A stretch of DNA of 64,000 nucleotides, from assembly GCF_002007205.1 (NCBI RefSeq), contig NZ_LAZS01000005.1, forward strand, positions 1,302,001 to 1,366,000. The letters run 5' to 3'. Below are positions 19,546-60,399 of this stretch, piece after piece. The DNA comes from Ensifer adhaerens (lineage in GTDB: Bacteria; Pseudomonadota; Alphaproteobacteria; Rhizobiales; Rhizobiaceae). The translations under genes and the position numbers were made by a program. The notes beneath the pieces were generated by a model, which was given only the letters and a program-made list of their open reading frames with translations, did not search any database and was not told the DNA's origin. Each line of letters starts with the position of its first letter. The stretch's first letter is position 1.

Positions 19546-20997
19546 TCAGCCGATCTGGCTTCCGACGAAATCCTTGACGATGCGCACGATGCCGCGACCG
19601 AGCAGGTCGTCGAGGGCTGCGATGAACTGGTCGACATGGGCGCGCTCGCAGATCAGCGGCGGCTCGAGGCGGATGACGTTGCGATTGTACTCGGTGAAAG
19701 CCACGAGCACATCGTAGTCACGCAGGAGCAGCGCGCCGATGAAACCGGAGAGCGAACCCTTGAGCTTGTCGTCGAGCATCGAGACGACGGGGCGCAGCAC
19801 CATCGGCAGCGTCTGGCTGAAGTCCTGGAATTCCAGACCGACCATCAGCCCCTGACCGCGGACGTCCTTGATGATCTTCGGATACTTCTCCTTGAGTGCC
19901 TGCAGGCGGTCGAGCAGATAGCTGCCGCTGTCGGCGGCGCGGTCGATCAGGTGCTCGTCATAGAGCACGTTGATGCCTTCGATCGCCGTCACGCAGGCCT
20001 CGCCCATGCCGCCGAAGGTCGCCATCGCGTGGATCATCGCCGTTTTCGGCGTGCCATAGGCCTTCATGTAGACTTCGCGGCGGGCAATCATCGCGCCGAC
20101 GGCGGCCTTGCCGGCGCCAAGCGACTTGGCGAGCGCCGTCACGTCAGGCACGACGCCGTAATGCTCGAAGGCATAGAAGCGGCCGGAGCGGCCATAGCCG
20201 CACTGCACTTCGTCGGCGACCCAGAGCACGCCGTACTTGTCGCAGAGCGCGCGCAGCTTCTGCCAGTATTCCGCCGGCGCCTGGATGATGCCGCCGCCGC
20301 CCTGGATGGTTTCGAGCACGATGACGCCGATTTCCGGATCGGACTTGAAGGCATTCTCCACCGCGTCGATATCGGCGAAGGGCACGCGCACGGTGTTGTC
20401 TGTGATCTTAAAGTCGGCACGGTAGAGCTGGCCGTCGGTGATGGCGAGCACGCCCTTGGTCTTGCCGTGGAAGGAATTCTCGGCATAGACGACCTTCGGC
20501 CGCTTCGGGCCGGCGGCGCGCTCGGCGAGCTTGACCGCGGCCTCCATCGCTTCCGAGCCGGAGGAACCGAGGAAGACCATATCGAGATCGCCGGGCGAGC
20601 AGGCGGCGATGTTCTTCGCCAGAGCCGCCGCATATTGCGACATGAAGGCGATGGCGATCTCGTGGCGCTTTTCGTCCTGGAACTTCTGGCGGGCGTCGAG
20701 AATGCGCGGATGGTTGTGGCCGAAGGCGAGCGAGCCGAAACCACCGAAGAAATCGAGGATCTTGCGGTCGTTCTGGTCGGTATAGAACATGCCTTCAGCG
20801 CTCTCGATCTTCACCTTGTGAAAGCCGAGAAGCTTCATGAAGTGGAGCTGGCCCGGGTTCAGGTGTTCCTTGAACGCGGTGGTGATGTCGCCGATCGACA
20901 TGGCCTTGGCCTGTTCGACCGTGATGAGATCGGGCCTGGCAACGCCGCCGTCGAGCGAAGGGGCGGCAACGGCGATACGGTTCGGTCTGTCCAGCAT
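19546..20997 (-). CDS. Class III (PLP-dependent) aminotransferase of the DprE1-like operon
   Basis: A 483-aa fold-type I aminotransferase. Visible are the cofactor region FLGSSGSEAMEAAVKLAE, the Asp in VLWVADEVQCGYGRSG and the PLP-Lys in TALAKSLGAGKAAVGAM. The closest types are ornithine/4-aminobutyrate aminotransferases, but the substrate is not clear. It is the last gene of a five-gene minus-strand operon. Two starts are possible: an ATG at 21012 overlapping the SDR stop (ATGA), and the ATG at 20997 placed well after GGGGAG. The second is preferred. In context it might aminate a keto-sugar lipid; see the finding on this operon. Confidence 0.88.
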   Translation of the reverse strand: MLDRPNRIAVAAPSLDGGVARPDLITVEQAKAMSIGDITTAFKEHLNPGQLHFMKLLGFHKVKIESAEGMFYTDQNDRKILDFFGGFGSLAFGHNHPRILDARQKFQDEKRHEIAIAFMSQYAAALAKNIAACSPGDLDMVFLGSSGSEAMEAAVKLAERAAGPKRPKVVYAENSFHGKTKGVLAITDGQLYRADFKITDNTVRVPFADIDAVENAFKSDPEIGVIVLETIQGGGGIIQAPAEYWQKLRALCDKYGVLWVADEVQCGYGRSGRFYAFEHYGVVPDVTALAKSLGAGKAAVGAMIARREVYMKAYGTPKTAMIHAMATFGGMGEACVTAIEGINVLYDEHLIDRAADSGSYLLDRLQALKEKYPKIIKDVRGQGLMVGLEFQDFSQTLPMVLRPVVSMLDDKLKGSLSGFIGALLLRDYDVLVAFTEYNRNVIRLEPPLICERAHVDQFIAALDDLLGRGIVRIVKDFVGSQIG

Positions 20998-21008
20998 GGT
21001 GTCTCCCC

Positions 21009-22019
21009 TCATTCGGCCGGTACGGCGACAGCTTCAGGAGCTGCGGCGCCCATCTTCTTGGCCCGATATTCGTCATAGGCGGCGATCAGCATGTCGCCAT
21101 CGTTGAATTCCGCACGCCAGCCGAGCTCGCGCTTCAGCTTGCCGGTCTCACGCACGCACATCTCGTCGGCAATCAGATACTGTTCCGGATCCATGATCGG
21201 CTTGTTGACCAGGTCAAAGAAGGCGAGCGTCTGCTTGACCGCGAAGGCGGGCGTCGGCAGCAGGAAGGACTTCGATCCCGCATGTTTGATCAGCTTGCCG
21301 AGCAGTTCGCGCACCGAAGGCGGATTGTCGGAGCCGAGATTGTAAGCTTCGTTCGGCACGCCACCCTTCCAGGCAAGGCGAGCGGCTTCGGCGCAATCGA
21401 ACACGGAGATGAACTGGTAGGGCACCTTGCCCGAGCCGATCATCGGCACCGGCAGGTTCAGGTCGATCAGCTTGAACAGTTTTTCGAGAATGCCAAGACG
21501 GCCGGGACCGATGATCAGGCGCGGGCGGAAGATCGAAATGTTCATGCCCTGCTTGCGCCATTGCATGGCCAGTTGCTCGGTCGCCCATTTCGACTTGCCG
21601 TATTCGCCGAGCGGCTTTGCCGGATGGTCTTCGGTTTGCGGCGATTGCACCGTATGGCCGTAGATCATGTCGGTGGTGAACTGCACGAGGCGCGATGCGC
21701 CGGCGGCGTCCATGGCCTTCATGATGTTCTCGGCACCGTAATAGTTGACCGGCCAGAAAAACTCCCAGCGCTTCGCGCGGACCTGCAGCGGCGACAGCAT
21801 CTTGGCCGCCATGTTGTAGATCATGTCGTCAGGACCGATGCCGACCTTCTGGACGGCTTCCAGATCGGTGACGTCGCAATGAACGAAGCGCACGCGGCCG
21901 TAGTGCGGCAGGTCGGACTTGACGATATCGGCGACAACGACGTCCTCGCCTTCCTTGACGAGACGTTCCGCCAGGTGACGGCCCACGAAGCCGTCGCCAC
22001 CAAAGATGATGTGTTTCAT
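21009..22019 (-). CDS. NAD-dependent epimerase/dehydratase (extended SDR)
   Basis: A 336-aa extended short-chain dehydrogenase. The dinucleotide-binding motif is HIIFGGDGFVGRHLAERL. The catalytic pair is YGKSK (Tyr/Lys, about residue 145). Substrate-side features include FRPRLIIGPGRLGILEKL. The substrate is probably a sugar nucleotide or sugar lipid. It is coupled by ATGA to the SMR transporter upstream and followed immediately by the aminotransferase. It is not an obvious DprE2, which is a shorter classical SDR. Confidence 0.88.
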   Translation of the reverse strand: MKHIIFGGDGFVGRHLAERLVKEGEDVVVADIVKSDLPHYGRVRFVHCDVTDLEAVQKVGIGPDDMIYNMAAKMLSPLQVRAKRWEFFWPVNYYGAENIMKAMDAAGASRLVQFTTDMIYGHTVQSPQTEDHPAKPLGEYGKSKWATEQLAMQWRKQGMNISIFRPRLIIGPGRLGILEKLFKLIDLNLPVPMIGSGKVPYQFISVFDCAEAARLAWKGGVPNEAYNLGSDNPPSVRELLGKLIKHAGSKSFLLPTPAFAVKQTLAFFDLVNKPIMDPEQYLIADEMCVRETGKLKRELGWRAEFNDGDMLIAAYDEYRAKKMGAAAPEAVAVPAE

Positions 22020-22456
22020 GACTTGCTCCCGAATTCTGCGGTGCTCACCCCGGCGGCATCGGCCGGCTTGTCGTCGGCATGGGATGAAATGCCCGATTGG
22101 GCGATAAGAACGGTTCCGGCGCAGATCAGCGCGATGCCGGCGATGCGCCAGGCGTTGAGGTCTTCGCGAAAGACGAAATAAGCAAAGACCGCGACGGCGA
22201 CGTAAGCGAGGCTCAGGAACGGATAGGCAAAGGAAAGCTCGACCTTCGACAGCACGTAGAGATGCGACGCCATCGAGATGACGAAGGTCGCAAGACCGGC
22301 GAAGACCCAAGGGTTGAAGACGATCTGAAACAGCCGGACAATTGCCGTCTCAGCGGTCATCGAAATCGGTCCGAGCGTCATCATGCCCTGCTTCAGCATC
22401 AGCTGGGCAGCGGCGTTGGTGAGCACCGTAAAGAGAATGAATGGAATATATTTCAT
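22016..22456 (-). CDS. SMR/EamA-type small transporter
   Basis: A 146-aa membrane protein with four membrane helices, starting KYIPFILFTVLTNAAAQLMLKQG (in part), with the EamA-like end NAWRIAGIALICAGTVLIAQ. It is about the size of ArnE/ArnF and other small flippases of polyprenyl-phosphate sugars. The polar 25-residue tail is unusual. Given its operon it may flip the glycolipid made by the neighbouring enzymes, which is inference. Start ATG at 22456, 93 bases after the oxidase stop, so it may also have its own promoter. Confidence 0.82.
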   Translation of the reverse strand: MKYIPFILFTVLTNAAAQLMLKQGMMTLGPISMTAETAIVRLFQIVFNPWVFAGLATFVISMASHLYVLSKVELSFAYPFLSLAYVAVAVFAYFVFREDLNAWRIAGIALICAGTVLIAQSGISSHADDKPADAAGVSTAEFGSKS

Positions 22457-22497
22457 AGTTTTACTCCCAGTCCCGAAAATCTACTTACGGGCAAGAG

Positions 22498-22510
22498 ACG
22501 GATATTCCGT
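22498..22510 (-). promoter_or_regulatory. ACGGA-N3-TCCGT inverted repeat inside the operon
   Basis: A perfect 5-bp inverted repeat sits in the only sizeable gap of the operon (22457-22549), 42 bases before the transporter start, in otherwise AT-rich DNA. It could be an internal operator or a small hairpin. Confidence 0.25.
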
Positions 22511-22549
22511 GAAGTTTGCGCATTTAATTGAATAAAATTGTTTGCATTC

Positions 22550-23872
22550 TCATTCTGGCAAAGCCAGAGCCGTGCGTTTCCAGAAGTTCGAAACGAGCGC
22601 CGGATCGCGCAGCGCTTCGACCTTTCTCCATAAAGGGAATGATTTTTCAAATACTTGCGGGTTCATACGGGCATCCTTGTAAGGATTGACCGCGCCGCCG
22701 GCCTCGATCACGATGCGATCGAGCGCGTCGAGCAGCTTTACTGTCCGTTCACCTTGATTGGCGAAGTCCAGCGTCAAAGTAAAACCGGGACGCGGGAAGG
22801 AGAGGATGCCTCGGGAGCCGATGTCGCCGAACCGCTTCAAGATCGTCAGGAACGAGGCATGGCCGGCCTGACGGGCGGTTTCCATGAGTTTGGCCGTGAT
22901 CTCCGGAGCGTTCTCCGCGGGATAGACGCTCTGATGCTGGTAGAGCCCGCGCGGACCATAGAGCCGGTTCCACGCGCCGATCGCGTCCAAAGGGTAGAAA
23001 TAGGACGTCCAGGGAACCGTCGTTACGGTTTCGCCCGGCTTCACCTTGCGGAAATAATACTCGTTGAAGCCCTTCAAAGTTGCCCGGTTCAGCAGATTGA
23101 ACGGAGGGGAAAACGGCACCGAGAGTTTCAGGCCCTTGGGAACGTCGGGCAACTCGCATGAACCATCGGCATGGTCGCCGGCAAGAAGCACGCCCCGCCC
23201 CATGCGGGATCCCGTGGCAAGCTGATCGATCCAGGCGACGGAATATTCGTGCTCGGCATCGACGCCGTCGACGAGCGCAAAGTATCGGTCCAGGTTTTCG
23301 AAGCGGATCGCGTGCTGCTGAACATGCGGCGAAGGCACCTTCATCAACCGGATATCCACGGTGAGAATCAGTCCGGTCAGACCCATGCCGCCGATGGTCG
23401 CGGCGAAGAGTTCCGGGTTTTCGACCGGCGAGCAGGTCAGCCGTTCGCCGGTCGAGCGCAGCAGCGTGAACGCCGTCACGTGATTGCCGAAGGTGCCGCG
23501 CGCGTGGTGGTTCTTGCCATGCACGTCATTGGCGACCGCGCCGCCGACGGTCACGAAGGCCGTACCGGGCGTCACCGGCAGGAAGAAGCGATGCTCGATC
23601 GCGCGCTCCAGTACCTCACGCAGCGTCACGCCCGCTTCGCAGGTCATCATGCCGGTACCGGGATCAAACGCGAGGATGCGCGCGTGTCTGCGGCTCTCGA
23701 TCAGCAGGCCCTGATCATTATGGCAGCTGTCGCCATAACTGCGGCCGTTGCCGAAGGGCAAGAATCCTCCGGCCTCCAGGTTCCCGAGGCGGTCTTCATA
23801 GTCGTCAGGCAAAATGGCCGGCCGCGCCCGATTGTCGAGGCGGCCCCAGCTTTCATGGTCTTCAAATGTCAT
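22550..23872 (-). CDS. FAD-linked oxidase, decaprenylphosphoryl-beta-D-ribose 2-oxidase (DprE1)-like
   Basis: A 440-aa VAO-type flavoprotein. The FAD domain contains GFLPFGNGRSYGDSCHND and GGAVANDVHGKNHH. The C-terminal part aligns with mycobacterial DprE1: LKRFG, then LSFPRPGFTLTLDF and NPYKDARM. The Lys in KDAR corresponds to catalytic Lys418 of DprE1. The benzothiazinone-reactive Cys387 position is Thr here (LTLDF). DprE1 oxidises C2 of polyprenyl-phosphoryl-ribose on the way to the arabinose donor. Coupled by ATGA to the UbiA-type gene. The exact substrate is inferred. Confidence 0.85.
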   Translation of the reverse strand: MTFEDHESWGRLDNRARPAILPDDYEDRLGNLEAGGFLPFGNGRSYGDSCHNDQGLLIESRRHARILAFDPGTGMMTCEAGVTLREVLERAIEHRFFLPVTPGTAFVTVGGAVANDVHGKNHHARGTFGNHVTAFTLLRSTGERLTCSPVENPELFAATIGGMGLTGLILTVDIRLMKVPSPHVQQHAIRFENLDRYFALVDGVDAEHEYSVAWIDQLATGSRMGRGVLLAGDHADGSCELPDVPKGLKLSVPFSPPFNLLNRATLKGFNEYYFRKVKPGETVTTVPWTSYFYPLDAIGAWNRLYGPRGLYQHQSVYPAENAPEITAKLMETARQAGHASFLTILKRFGDIGSRGILSFPRPGFTLTLDFANQGERTVKLLDALDRIVIEAGGAVNPYKDARMNPQVFEKSFPLWRKVEALRDPALVSNFWKRTALALPE

Positions 23873-25344
23873 TGCGGCCCGATGGCTCCAAAGAGGATGA
23901 GCAGCGCGCCAACCAGCATGGTCAATTGGCTGCGCCAGTCGCGCATGATGAAGACAACAGGATCTTCATGCAGCATGCCGCGGCGTGCGAGCATCCAGAT
24001 GCGCAGCAACATATAGAGCACCAGCGGGCAGAGAGGCCACAACGCCCAGGGCGTGGTGTACATCTCCTGCAGCTCCTTGCTGTGCACGTAGAGCGCCAGA
24101 ACCAGGGCCGAGGTAAAGGCTGACGCCACGCCCGCCTGCCCGACCATTTCGAAGTCGACGGCAAGATAGCCGCGCCCGGGTACATTGCCGCCGTCCTTGT
24201 CCTCGAATTCGTGCAACTCGACGTAACGCTTCACCAGAGCCAAACTGAGGAAGAAGAAGATCGCAAAGGACACCAGCCAGAAGGAGAGTTCGGTGCCCGT
24301 CGCCGCCGCGCCGGCGACGATGCGCATGGTGTAGAGGCCGGCGAGCGTGAACACGTCGACGAGCAGCTTGCGTTTCAGCACGAAGGTATAGGCCGTCGTG
24401 GCGCAGGCGTAGAAGGCGAGCACCCCGGCAAACTTCCAGGGCAAGAGAAGGGTCAGCGCCATGGAGGCGAGGATGAGGCACCCGGCCAGCACCAGCGCCG
24501 TCGGCACGGACATCTGGCCGCTGGCGAGCGGCCTGTAGCGTTTCTTCGCGTGGCGGCGATCGTTGGCGAGATCCGAAAGATCGTTGATGACGTAGACGGC
24601 GGAAGCGAGGAAACTGAAGGCGAAGAAGGCGATGATGACGCTGACGATCGCATCGAAGTGCAGCACTTCGTGATTGAGGATCATCGGCACGCCGATGAGC
24701 ACGTTCTTCGCCCATTGATGTACCCGGATCGACTTCAGCGGCGCAAGCGCGCTCACCTTGCCCGTGTCGAGCCGCTCGGCGTCATGGTTGCGGCGCCATT
24801 TTTCCGCGGCCGCATCGGGCGAGACCACGATCGCGCGGCGCGCCACCTCGAAGACGGCGATATCGTCGCGGCTGTTGCCCATATAGTCGAAGGCGCCGTC
24901 GCCGAACCGTTCGACCAGCGCCTGGCGCTTGCGGCTGCTCGTCAGGTTGAGCTCGTCCGTCGAATGCATCACCGACGAAAAGACGCCCACATGCTCGGCA
25001 ATGTCTTTTGCGACGGATGGCGCGGCACCGGTGACCAGCACCAGCTCGCGCCCCGTCTTCTTCTCCTGCGCGAGCCGGTCGATGACGGCCTGCCGGTAGG
25101 GCCAGTCTTCCGCCCGGCGGCCGGACCGCAGCGCCACTTCATGCTTCAGCCGTGCCTTGCCTTTTGTCAGCCAGAACAGCATGGGAAACAGCATCAGCGG
25201 ATTGCGCAGCAGGATGATCGCCGCCCCTTCCCACAGGGTGTCGGCAGCCAGCAAAGTGCCGTCCAGATCCACACACAGCGGAATGTGCCGTGTCTCGGTG
25301 CGCGCGTCCATGAAGTCCATCCCAGCCATAGTTGCCGGTATCAT
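23869..25344 (-). CDS. HAD hydrolase-UbiA prenyltransferase fusion (DPPR-synthase/NoeC-like)
   Basis: A two-domain protein of about 491 aa. Residues 15-200 are a HAD phosphatase: DLDGTLL (motif I), VLVTGAAPS (motif II), Lys in SRKRQALVERFG and YMGNSRDDIAVFE (motif IV). Residues 215-490 are a UbiA prenyltransferase with about eight membrane helices and the first Asp-rich motif VINDLSDLANDRRHAKKRYR. The fusion matches the phosphoribosyl-polyprenyl-phosphate synthase group plus its phosphatase (Rv3806c/Rv3807c functions) and NoeC of Azorhizobium. The start is uncertain; the ATG at 25344 is used, with ATGs at 25326 and 25317 possible. First gene of the operon. Confidence 0.85.
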   Translation of the reverse strand: MIPATMAGMDFMDARTETRHIPLCVDLDGTLLAADTLWEGAAIILLRNPLMLFPMLFWLTKGKARLKHEVALRSGRRAEDWPYRQAVIDRLAQEKKTGRELVLVTGAAPSVAKDIAEHVGVFSSVMHSTDELNLTSSRKRQALVERFGDGAFDYMGNSRDDIAVFEVARRAIVVSPDAAAEKWRRNHDAERLDTGKVSALAPLKSIRVHQWAKNVLIGVPMILNHEVLHFDAIVSVIIAFFAFSFLASAVYVINDLSDLANDRRHAKKRYRPLASGQMSVPTALVLAGCLILASMALTLLLPWKFAGVLAFYACATTAYTFVLKRKLLVDVFTLAGLYTMRIVAGAAATGTELSFWLVSFAIFFFLSLALVKRYVELHEFEDKDGGNVPGRGYLAVDFEMVGQAGVASAFTSALVLALYVHSKELQEMYTTPWALWPLCPLVLYMLLRIWMLARRGMLHEDPVVFIMRDWRSQLTMLVGALLILFGAIGPQ

Positions 25345-25542: not shown

Positions 25543-26427
25543 TTAGCGGCTGCCGATCCAGTTCAGCGCATCGCGCCAGTCGGTCATGCGCACCGGCGTT
25601 CCATGCGAGCCGGTTTCGAAGAGTATGAAACGCGTGGGGTAGCCCTTGGCCTTCAGCGCACGGTAGAGCGCCTTTTGACCTTCGGCGGGATAGACGGTGT
25701 CGCGGCTGCCATGGCTAAAGAACATGGGGAGCTTTGCCTTGTAGGCGGCGCTTTTCGTGAAATCCGGGTCGCTCGCGCCCCCCATCACCATCATGCCGCT
25801 GAGCGCTGCAACCGCGGACGCGTCGCGGGAAACGCCCCAGCAGATGAAGCTTCCCATCGAGGCGCAGGCGAGCACGACCGGACGGCCGCCGGAGCGTTCG
25901 GAGGCGTATCTGACCAGTCCGGCGATATCGGCCGCGCCTGCCGTATCGAAGGACCGGACGCTCGGCGCATAATAGGTGCCGCCATTGGCGACGGCGAGGT
26001 TCTTCAGCCGGTTGAAGTTTCCGCCGAAGGAAAAATCGTTGACGCCGAGCCGGCGGTCGCCGCCGCGACCATGGATAAAGATGACCGAAAAGCCGGCGCC
26101 GCGATCAGGGCCGACGCGCGTCACGTCAAGCGCGCGACCGCCGATATCGAGCGTTTCATTGACCTGTTCGCTCTTCACGCCGAGCGAAACATAAGCGCGC
26201 TTCACGCGGCGTTCGGGGATTTCGTCGCGCTCGTTGATATCGCGCAGCTCCTGATAATCGACCGTCAGGTCGTCTCCACCATCCTGCTCGCGCAGCACCT
26301 TCGCGTAGGAGAAAAGCTCGTCCTTGTAGGGCTTCAGCACCTGAGCCTGCGCCGGCGAAGCGGCGATTGCCAAGGCCAGGGCGAACAGGCCGGCGCGAAA
26401 CGGAAAAACAACTGTGGACACGGCCAA
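25543..26427 (-). CDS. Secreted alpha/beta-hydrolase-like protein
   Basis: A 294-aa exported protein. A signal peptide (about residues 1-28, ending SPAQAQ) precedes an alpha/beta-hydrolase domain. The oxyanion region is VIFIHGRGGDRRLG. The nucleophile elbow reads CASMGS, a C-x-S-x-G instead of G-x-S-x-G. The Asp is in FSHGSRDTVYP and the His in FETGSHGTPVR, so a full triad is present. The start is a TTG at 26427 with AGGGAG upstream; a GTG at 26421 is also in frame. The substrate is unknown. Confidence 0.78.
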   Translation of the reverse strand: MAVSTVVFPFRAGLFALALAIAASPAQAQVLKPYKDELFSYAKVLREQDGGDDLTVDYQELRDINERDEIPERRVKRAYVSLGVKSEQVNETLDIGGRALDVTRVGPDRGAGFSVIFIHGRGGDRRLGVNDFSFGGNFNRLKNLAVANGGTYYAPSVRSFDTAGAADIAGLVRYASERSGGRPVVLACASMGSFICWGVSRDASAVAALSGMMVMGGASDPDFTKSAAYKAKLPMFFSHGSRDTVYPAEGQKALYRALKAKGYPTRFILFETGSHGTPVRMTDWRDALNWIGSR

Positions 26428-59845: not shown

Positions 59846-59930
59846 TGGTGCGGTCGAGAAGACTCGAACTTCCACGGGTTGCCCCACAGCGACCTCAACG
59901 CTGCGCGTCTACCAATTCCGCCACGACCGC
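59846..59930 (-). tRNA. tRNA-Leu (anticodon GAG), copy 1
   Basis: An 85-base gene including an encoded CCA (59846-59848). The acceptor arms are GCGGTCG and CGACCGC; the anticodon stem/loop is CAGCG-TTGAGGT-CGCTG with anticodon GAG (reads CUC and CUU). A long variable arm is present, as expected for a class II tRNA. T-arm GAAG-TTCGAGTC-TTC. Confidence 0.97.
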
Positions 59931-60314: not shown

Positions 60315-60399
60315 TGGTGCGGTCGAGAAGACTCGAACTTCCACGGGTTGCCCCACAGCGACCTCAACGCTGCGCGTCTACCAATTCCGCCACGACCGC
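60315..60399 (-). tRNA. tRNA-Leu (anticodon GAG), copy 2
   Basis: Identical to copy 1 over the whole 85 bases, including CCA. Anticodon GAG. Confidence 0.97.

Follow-up and report, generated by a model that had tools for sequence, protein, structure and literature searches.

The decaprenylphosphoryl-arabinose pathway of mycobacteria (Rv3806c, Rv3807c, DprE1/DprE2 and Rv3789) combines a UbiA-type enzyme dependent on phosphoribosyl pyrophosphate (PRPP), a dephosphorylation and a DprE1-family oxidase. The same combination is recognisable in a five-gene operon of Ensifer adhaerens, which is the subject of this study and which lies in a stretch of 64,000 nt (NZ_LAZS01000005.1, positions 1,302,001-1,366,000; assembly GCF_002007205.1; hereafter the window). 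Unlike the mycobacterial pathway, this operon has a class III aminotransferase (AT) in the place of DprE2, a phosphatase that is fused and of the HAD type, and an EamA-like flippase candidate. The Arn pathway, which places 4-amino-4-deoxy-L-arabinose (L-Ara4N) on lipid A, likewise involves an amino-pentose on polyprenyl phosphate, a small flippase and a transferase of the glycosyltransferase C (GT-C) type, and its amination takes place on the uridine diphosphate (UDP)-sugar by a DegT-type enzyme (ArnB). The operon appears to share this logic, but with a class III enzyme and a lipid that would be derived from PRPP; its AT matched Pfam Aminotran_3, and no DegT was among the Pfam matches.

A three-component pentofuranose system was described in Citrobacter youngae (Kelly et al. 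2024, PMC11127046). It resembles the E. adhaerens operon in having a HAD(PRP)-UbiA fusion, which makes polyprenyl-phosphate-ribofuranose (on undecaprenyl phosphate there), a short-chain dehydrogenase/reductase (SDR) that can alter the pentose, a flippase, a GT-C protein and the same spacing of UbiA residues. It differs in its MATE flippase and in providing ribose or xylose, as described, without a DprE1-type oxidase or an aminotransferase, the latter being nowhere mentioned in that paper; DprE1/DprE2 homologues are reported there for arabinofuranose systems. Nod factor arabinosylation uses noeCNHOP (PMC5080398, PMC2443382), and strain IRBG74 has the phosphatase candidate NoeN encoded by a gene of its own (PMC5080398). 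No description of an aminotransferase in such a lipid-linked pentose system was found in the literature searched, which covered few subscription journals, and the amino-pentose literature found dealt mainly with nucleoside antibiotics.

On balance, the operon probably makes and flips a polyprenyl-phosphate-linked amino-pentofuranose. This reading draws on the conserved linkage of the five genes, on the residues kept in their products and on the non-overlapping occurrence of AT and DprE2.

Operon structure and encoded proteins

Five open reading frames (ORFs) were confirmed at 19546-25344, every one on the minus strand, in the order HAD-UbiA, oxidase, EamA/SMR, extended SDR and class III AT:

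23869..25344, minus strand: HAD phosphatase-UbiA phosphoribosyltransferase fusion (P0001), predicted polyprenyl-phosphate ribofuranose synthase (PRK08238, 8j8j, conserved residues)
22550..23872, minus strand: DprE1-family flavin adenine dinucleotide (FAD) oxidase (P0002), predicted polyprenyl-phosphate-pentose oxidase (4aut, HGK and lysines)
22016..22456, minus strand: EamA/SMR-type small membrane protein (P0003), flippase candidate (Pfam EamA)
21009..22019, minus strand: extended SDR (P0004) of the NAD-dependent epimerase/dehydratase family, candidate tailoring enzyme (Pfam Epimerase)
19546..21012, minus strand: class III pyridoxal phosphate (PLP) aminotransferase (P0005; Pfam Aminotran_3), true start maybe a few codons further in

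Overlaps of 4 nt (ATGA) were present at three junctions (UbiA/oxidase, SMR/SDR and SDR/AT), and the oxidase and SMR genes were separated by a 93-bp gap. The ORF and Pfam calls agreed with the original prediction of five minus-strand genes from these families, mostly joined by ATGA overlaps. The operon was similar in GC content to the remaining window. Its own genome (G000; 6.87 Mb, 22 contigs) held a single HAD-UbiA match, and the best AT paralogue within it was 35% identical.

P0001 scored 94.7 bits against Pfam UbiA and 26.2 bits against HAD, slightly below the cut-off of 27, and its match to NCBIfam PRK08238 (580.8 bits) was above the cut-off of 351. The UbiA part matched the solved mycobacterial decaprenyl-phosphate phosphoribosyltransferase in the PDB (8j8j, E 1e-25). 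The N-D-x-x-D-x-x-x-D and R-x-x-E motifs of PPPRS systems were both present in P0001; N254, D255, D258, D262 and R373 were kept in 124 of 124 AT loci, window included, and E376 in 123. The HAD nucleophile of those systems was also found, in a DLDGT motif whose D26 was kept in 123 of the 124 AT loci, the remaining one being unaligned. The residues tested in the Citrobacter HAD-UbiA fusion ORF15 (D18; N247, D248, D251, D255; R366, E369; PMC11127046) have identically spaced counterparts in P0001 (D26; N254, D255, D258, D262; R373, E376). Two further loci (L197 and L200) had a HAD-UbiA gene beside a small membrane-protein gene, EamA-like by eye, with no oxidase in the stretch read; these genes are possibly plain ribofuranose donors.

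P0002 matched the DprE1 structure 4aut in the PDB (E 4.4e-68) and Pfam FAD_binding_4 (67.1 bits), and its score against the NCBIfam DprE1 equivalog model (337.9 bits) was below the cut-off of 500. It has the HGK motif and the catalytic lysine of the DprE1 family: H118, G119, K120, K346 and K399, which we take to be the known DprE1 active-site residues, were conserved in 123 of 123 AT-linked oxidases. With the Citrobacter fusion and the two structural matches, the lipid-linked pentose skeleton that had been proposed for the locus was upheld.

For P0003, the EamA score was 31.4 bits (cut-off 28.2), and the best NCBIfam models, both under cut-off, were ArnF (54.9; cut-off 99) and ArnE (36; cut-off 92). 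P0004 scored 118.5 bits against Pfam Epimerase, with an intact YxxxK motif. An extended SDR occurred in 123 of 127 AT loci, and G8, G10, G13, T116, Y140 and K144 were kept in all 123. P0004 is an extended SDR and not DprE2-like (best NCBIfam model HpnA, 66 bits against a cut-off of 368). P0005 scored 284.3 bits against Aminotran_3, and the nearest solved chain was 4ppm ('Aminotransferase', E 3.3e-71), presumably PigE; the best NCBIfam model was also PigE (346.5 bits, cut-off 850). K296, D267, Q270, R275, H182 and R448 were present in 127 of 127 AT loci, and position 151 was S in 117 and T in 10. The AT was the best conserved of the five proteins (median 85% identity), most loci having been picked by AT similarity.

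Linkage and distribution of the operon

The species genome collection was scanned with the AT, which gave 236 relatives; the best 80, mainly from Ensifer and Mesorhizobium, were kept (the named loci). The nearest were mostly Ensifer strains with 95-98% AT identity. All five genes were found in the same order and strand in 78 of the best 80 AT relatives, which excludes a chance arrangement, and the remaining two (L082 and L085) were on cut contigs. A genus-spread sample, drawn from the window's family (Rhizobiaceae), comprised 40 regions, one of which was set aside for a wrong coordinate; all five genes were present in 36 of the remaining 39 AT loci. The exceptions were L153 (no SDR), L164 (no oxidase) and L165 (SMR-SDR-AT alone). 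Genus g145, to which L165 belongs, carried an oxidase of 61-63% identity elsewhere in 7/7 genomes tested, beside HAD-UbiA in the three loci read. Among 394 genomes of the family, the AT was found in 195, the oxidase in 219 and both in 194. The class sample (289 genomes) gave two with the AT, namely the window's own and G788.

No SDR ortholog was found in three genomes with both AT and oxidase, namely G217 (best E 4e-13), G161 (2e-13) and G183 (none at 1e-10), for which reason the oxidase and AT look like the core of the system and the SDR like a tailoring step.

AT and DprE2 as alternatives

Gene order was read in 20 loci picked from the 51 HAD-UbiA matches of an order-level genome sample. Six had the AT, seven lacked an oxidase within the stretch, L189 was UbiA-oxidase-SMR-SDR without AT, and the other six had an oxidase but neither AT nor extended SDR. 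All six of the latter had a DprE2-like short SDR; two of these proteins scored 185 and 196 bits against the NCBIfam DprE2 model (cut-off 250) and were above the PRK07102 cut-off. DprE2 was found in none of the 127 AT loci among 153 records of at least 9 kb, window included. At genome level, with a threshold of E 1e-30, 18 genomes were oxidase-positive and AT-negative (the orphan oxidases of genus g144, described below, aside), and 15 of these had DprE2, versus 0 of 40 AT genomes, chosen from the 195 as the window's own genome and those with the lowest handles (Fisher p 3e-11, kinship ignored). It was likewise found in none of seven g144 genomes. The reductase of the DprE1/DprE2 arabinose-donor pathway was not found in the 40 AT genomes at this threshold, and in the own genome, where all 63 SDR candidates were scored, the best was 33% identical (E 1.4e-15).

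The 16 loci around DprE2 matches (the 15 and G043) had UbiA, oxidase and DprE2 together in 14, with one cut contig and a lone DprE2 in G043. G043 is also the source of L189, an operon with the SDR and with no AT at that locus. Alphaproteobacterial operons of the form UbiA-GtrA-DprE1-DprE2 (L196, L198, L199, L202; L246, L247, L249-L254) share the HAD-UbiA and oxidase families and their order with the AT operon, and those of L246-L254 come from the same bacterial family as the window. They differ in that GtrA and DprE2 replace the SMR protein, extended SDR and AT, and their oxidases are about 37-42% identical. In genera g187, g162, g116, g176 and g146, some genomes carried the AT and others a DprE2 operon. 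As the UbiA proteins of these DprE2 operons were 33-40% identical to P0001, whole operons differ and not single genes, which suggests operon replacement within these genera. The most telling single comparison was between L192 (G161), which is UbiA-oxidase-AT beside an LPG_synthase_TM protein in a genome lacking an SDR ortholog, and L256-L258, which are UbiA-oxidase-DprE2 with a related LPG-type neighbour and have oxidases from the same unresolved fork as L192.

The frequency of the exchange was assessed on oxidase trees. The first tree (55 oxidases) needed three changes of AT label, two of them forced, one of which rested on the long-branched L231. When the tree was rebuilt leaving out the mycobacterial row and L231, a single change was enough, with weak support (51/6; 52% of bootstrap trees). 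Repeated swapping of AT and DprE2 was dropped as an interpretation, since this tree needs one change. AT and DprE2 appear, from their distribution, to replace each other, a correlation which perhaps goes back to one event. This mutual exclusion is new evidence, and with it the original prediction was partly supported: amination of a keto intermediate by the AT gained indirect support, and the chemistry and the product remain predicted.

Oxidases of the AT clade and the site of oxidation

Near the catalytic K399, T367, N396 and Y398 were found in 121 of 123 AT-linked oxidases; in the six DprE2-linked ones aligned, these positions are A or T (367), Y (396) and A (398). The remaining two AT-linked oxidases, those of L192 and L231, show A367, Y396 and A398, residues of the DprE2 type. 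The oxidised carbon is most likely C2, with real doubt.

Genus g144 had a different arrangement. In the six loci read (L223-L228), an orphan DprE1-like oxidase with an open frame lay between an alpha/beta hydrolase and a YceI-like gene. UbiA, SMR, SDR and AT were gone from these loci and the oxidase persisted, with K346 changed in 6/6, K120 in 5/6 and K399 in 4/6. Two of the orphans fell inside the AT clade of the oxidase tree, beside the window, so the operon was probably lost in g144, the remaining oxidase having decayed or taken a new role.

A candidate transferase

An invariant WDxxxYxD loop close to the N-terminus marks a membrane protein of ~560-600 residues which may, from its topology and motif, be GT-C-like. 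Among the 39 genus-spread loci, 15 had its gene adjoining the operon, as did 2 of the 80 named ones; the gene was present in 132 of the 394 family genomes, 129 of these with the AT. The own genome has the following candidate:

G000:C18:1121828-1123633 (L217 7826-9637): GT-C-like candidate, ~198 kb away from the operon and next to a gene reading as glmU by eye

Two members gave no Pfam or NCBIfam match, and a profile comparison with two PMT_2-like neighbour proteins was not significant. The AlphaFold model, made from a two-sequence alignment, had a pLDDT (predicted local distance difference test score) of 39.9.

Proposed pathway and alternative explanations

In the proposed pathway, the HAD part of P0001 would remove the 5-phosphate from the lipid-linked ribofuranose, and the DprE1-type oxidase would turn a ring hydroxyl, C2 by preference, into a ketone. 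The class III AT would then aminate this ketone on the lipid, at the point where the arabinose pathway has a reduction by DprE2. In operons that have it, the extended SDR would adjust another position, for instance C3 as an SDR does in Citrobacter; there the SDR turns a ribose side chain into xylose (PMC11127046), and P0004 may do something similar. After flipping of the lipid by the SMR protein, the sugar would be put onto an envelope glycan by a transferase whose gene lies outside the operon, perhaps the GT-C-like one. The predicted steps up to the oxidation are supported by homology, by residue conservation and by the enzymes characterised in Citrobacter and mycobacteria, and those of amination, SDR action, flipping and transfer are inferred from gene content. 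In its broadest form, the proposal would be that polyprenyl-phosphate amino-pentofuranose donors made by on-lipid transamination after DprE1-type oxidation are widespread, with AT and DprE2 as alternative modules of one oxidase pathway in Hyphomicrobiales and the GT-C-like family, so far without a name, as the transferase; this broader form is tentative, its chances falling a little short of even.

Several observations speak against amination on the lipid at C2 or against the generality of the system. As one switch suffices on the oxidase tree, the mutual exclusion may reflect a single event. DprE2 was not found in three of the 18 oxidase-positive, AT-negative genomes (G371, G461 and G521), and in 25 of the 40 AT genomes the DprE2 test scored 42 SDR candidates only. 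Among the 194 genomes with AT and oxidase, 11 had weak oxidase matches, between E 1e-85 and 1e-114, which might represent different oxidases. The AT operon of G239 lacks its oxidase, with only a 48% relative elsewhere, and in G405 the AT match is weaker (E 8e-126) and an oxidase was absent at E 1e-60. The GT-C-like gene was absent from 66 of 195 AT genomes and present in three genomes without the AT. The oxidases of the AT clade differ from DprE1 beside the catalytic lysine, so that the oxidised carbon could differ, and class III aminotransferases often act on terminal aldehydes.

The last two points would fit the same pathway with amination at C3 or C5 through a changed regiochemistry of the oxidase, giving a 3- or 5-amino-pentofuranose. 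The AT-linked oxidases of L192 and L231 retain the DprE2-type residues, however, in keeping with an earlier site at C2, though the position of L231 in the tree is unsure, and this variant was considered distinctly improbable. The extended SDR might alternatively replace DprE2, in which case the product would be a plain pentofuranose of the arabinose or xylose type and the AT would act elsewhere, for example on the acceptor or on a side metabolite. The intact catalytic residues of the SDR and its presence in nearly all AT loci are consistent with this, as are L189, with an SDR and no AT, and the Citrobacter SDR, which suffices alone for the change from ribose to xylose (PMC11127046). Against it stand the three AT- and oxidase-positive genomes without an SDR ortholog, the DprE2 of G043, whose locus has the SDR and no AT, and the high conservation of the AT, subject to the choice of most loci by AT similarity. 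A plain pentofuranose made in this way seems unlikely, albeit worth serious consideration.

An ordinary pathway of the decaprenylphosphoryl-arabinose type, as in Nod factor arabinosylation, with the AT as a passenger, would account for the UbiA, phosphatase and DprE1 homology, and noeC, noeH and noeO were assigned to steps of decaprenylphosphoryl-arabinofuranose synthesis (PMC5080398). Against it, the own genome has no DprE2 ortholog, and of the 219 genomes with the oxidase 194 also have the supposed passenger; it was judged very unlikely. The AT could also be HpnO, making aminobacteriohopanetriol, with unrelated neighbours. HpnO is of the aminotransferase family, acts on ribosylhopane, occurred in Hyphomicrobiales alone in the set of species studied and mostly lies outside the hopanoid cluster (PMC12583986). 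The same source lists Mesorhizobium among the genera without shc and reports no HpnH in 26 Ensifer genomes, which speaks, by literature only, against a hopanoid role, as the operon is present in both genera; the AT is moreover linked to UbiA and the oxidase. A hopanoid function is scarcely credible. The preferred explanation thus continues to be an amino-pentofuranose donor made on the lipid.

Genomic setting

One further gene directly upstream of the operon may be accessory to it:

25543..26427, minus strand: alpha/beta hydrolase with a TTG start, possible accessory gene (Pfam Hydrolase_4, 37 bits)

Such a hydrolase adjoined the operon in 10 of the 80 named loci. The promoter scan found 0 sites against 1.6 expected by chance and the terminator scan 10 against 5.9 expected, and neither was used. 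Elsewhere in the window, a pair of tRNA-Leu(gag) genes was present at 59846-59930 and 60315-60399, with flanks, comprising ~50 bp of upstream sequence and, downstream, a terminator-like hairpin, that are 96% identical over 187 columns. To judge from this identity, the pair is probably a recent tandem duplication.

Implications

If the proposed pathway is correct, it would represent a second logic for making bacterial amino sugars, on a membrane lipid with PRPP as the starting compound and not on a nucleotide sugar. It would point to a new GT-C-like family, and natural controls would be available in g144, with its decayed oxidase alone, and in the five genera that mix AT and DprE2 operons. A positively charged amino-pentofuranose would then be predicted in an envelope glycan in roughly half of the family's sampled genomes (195/394).

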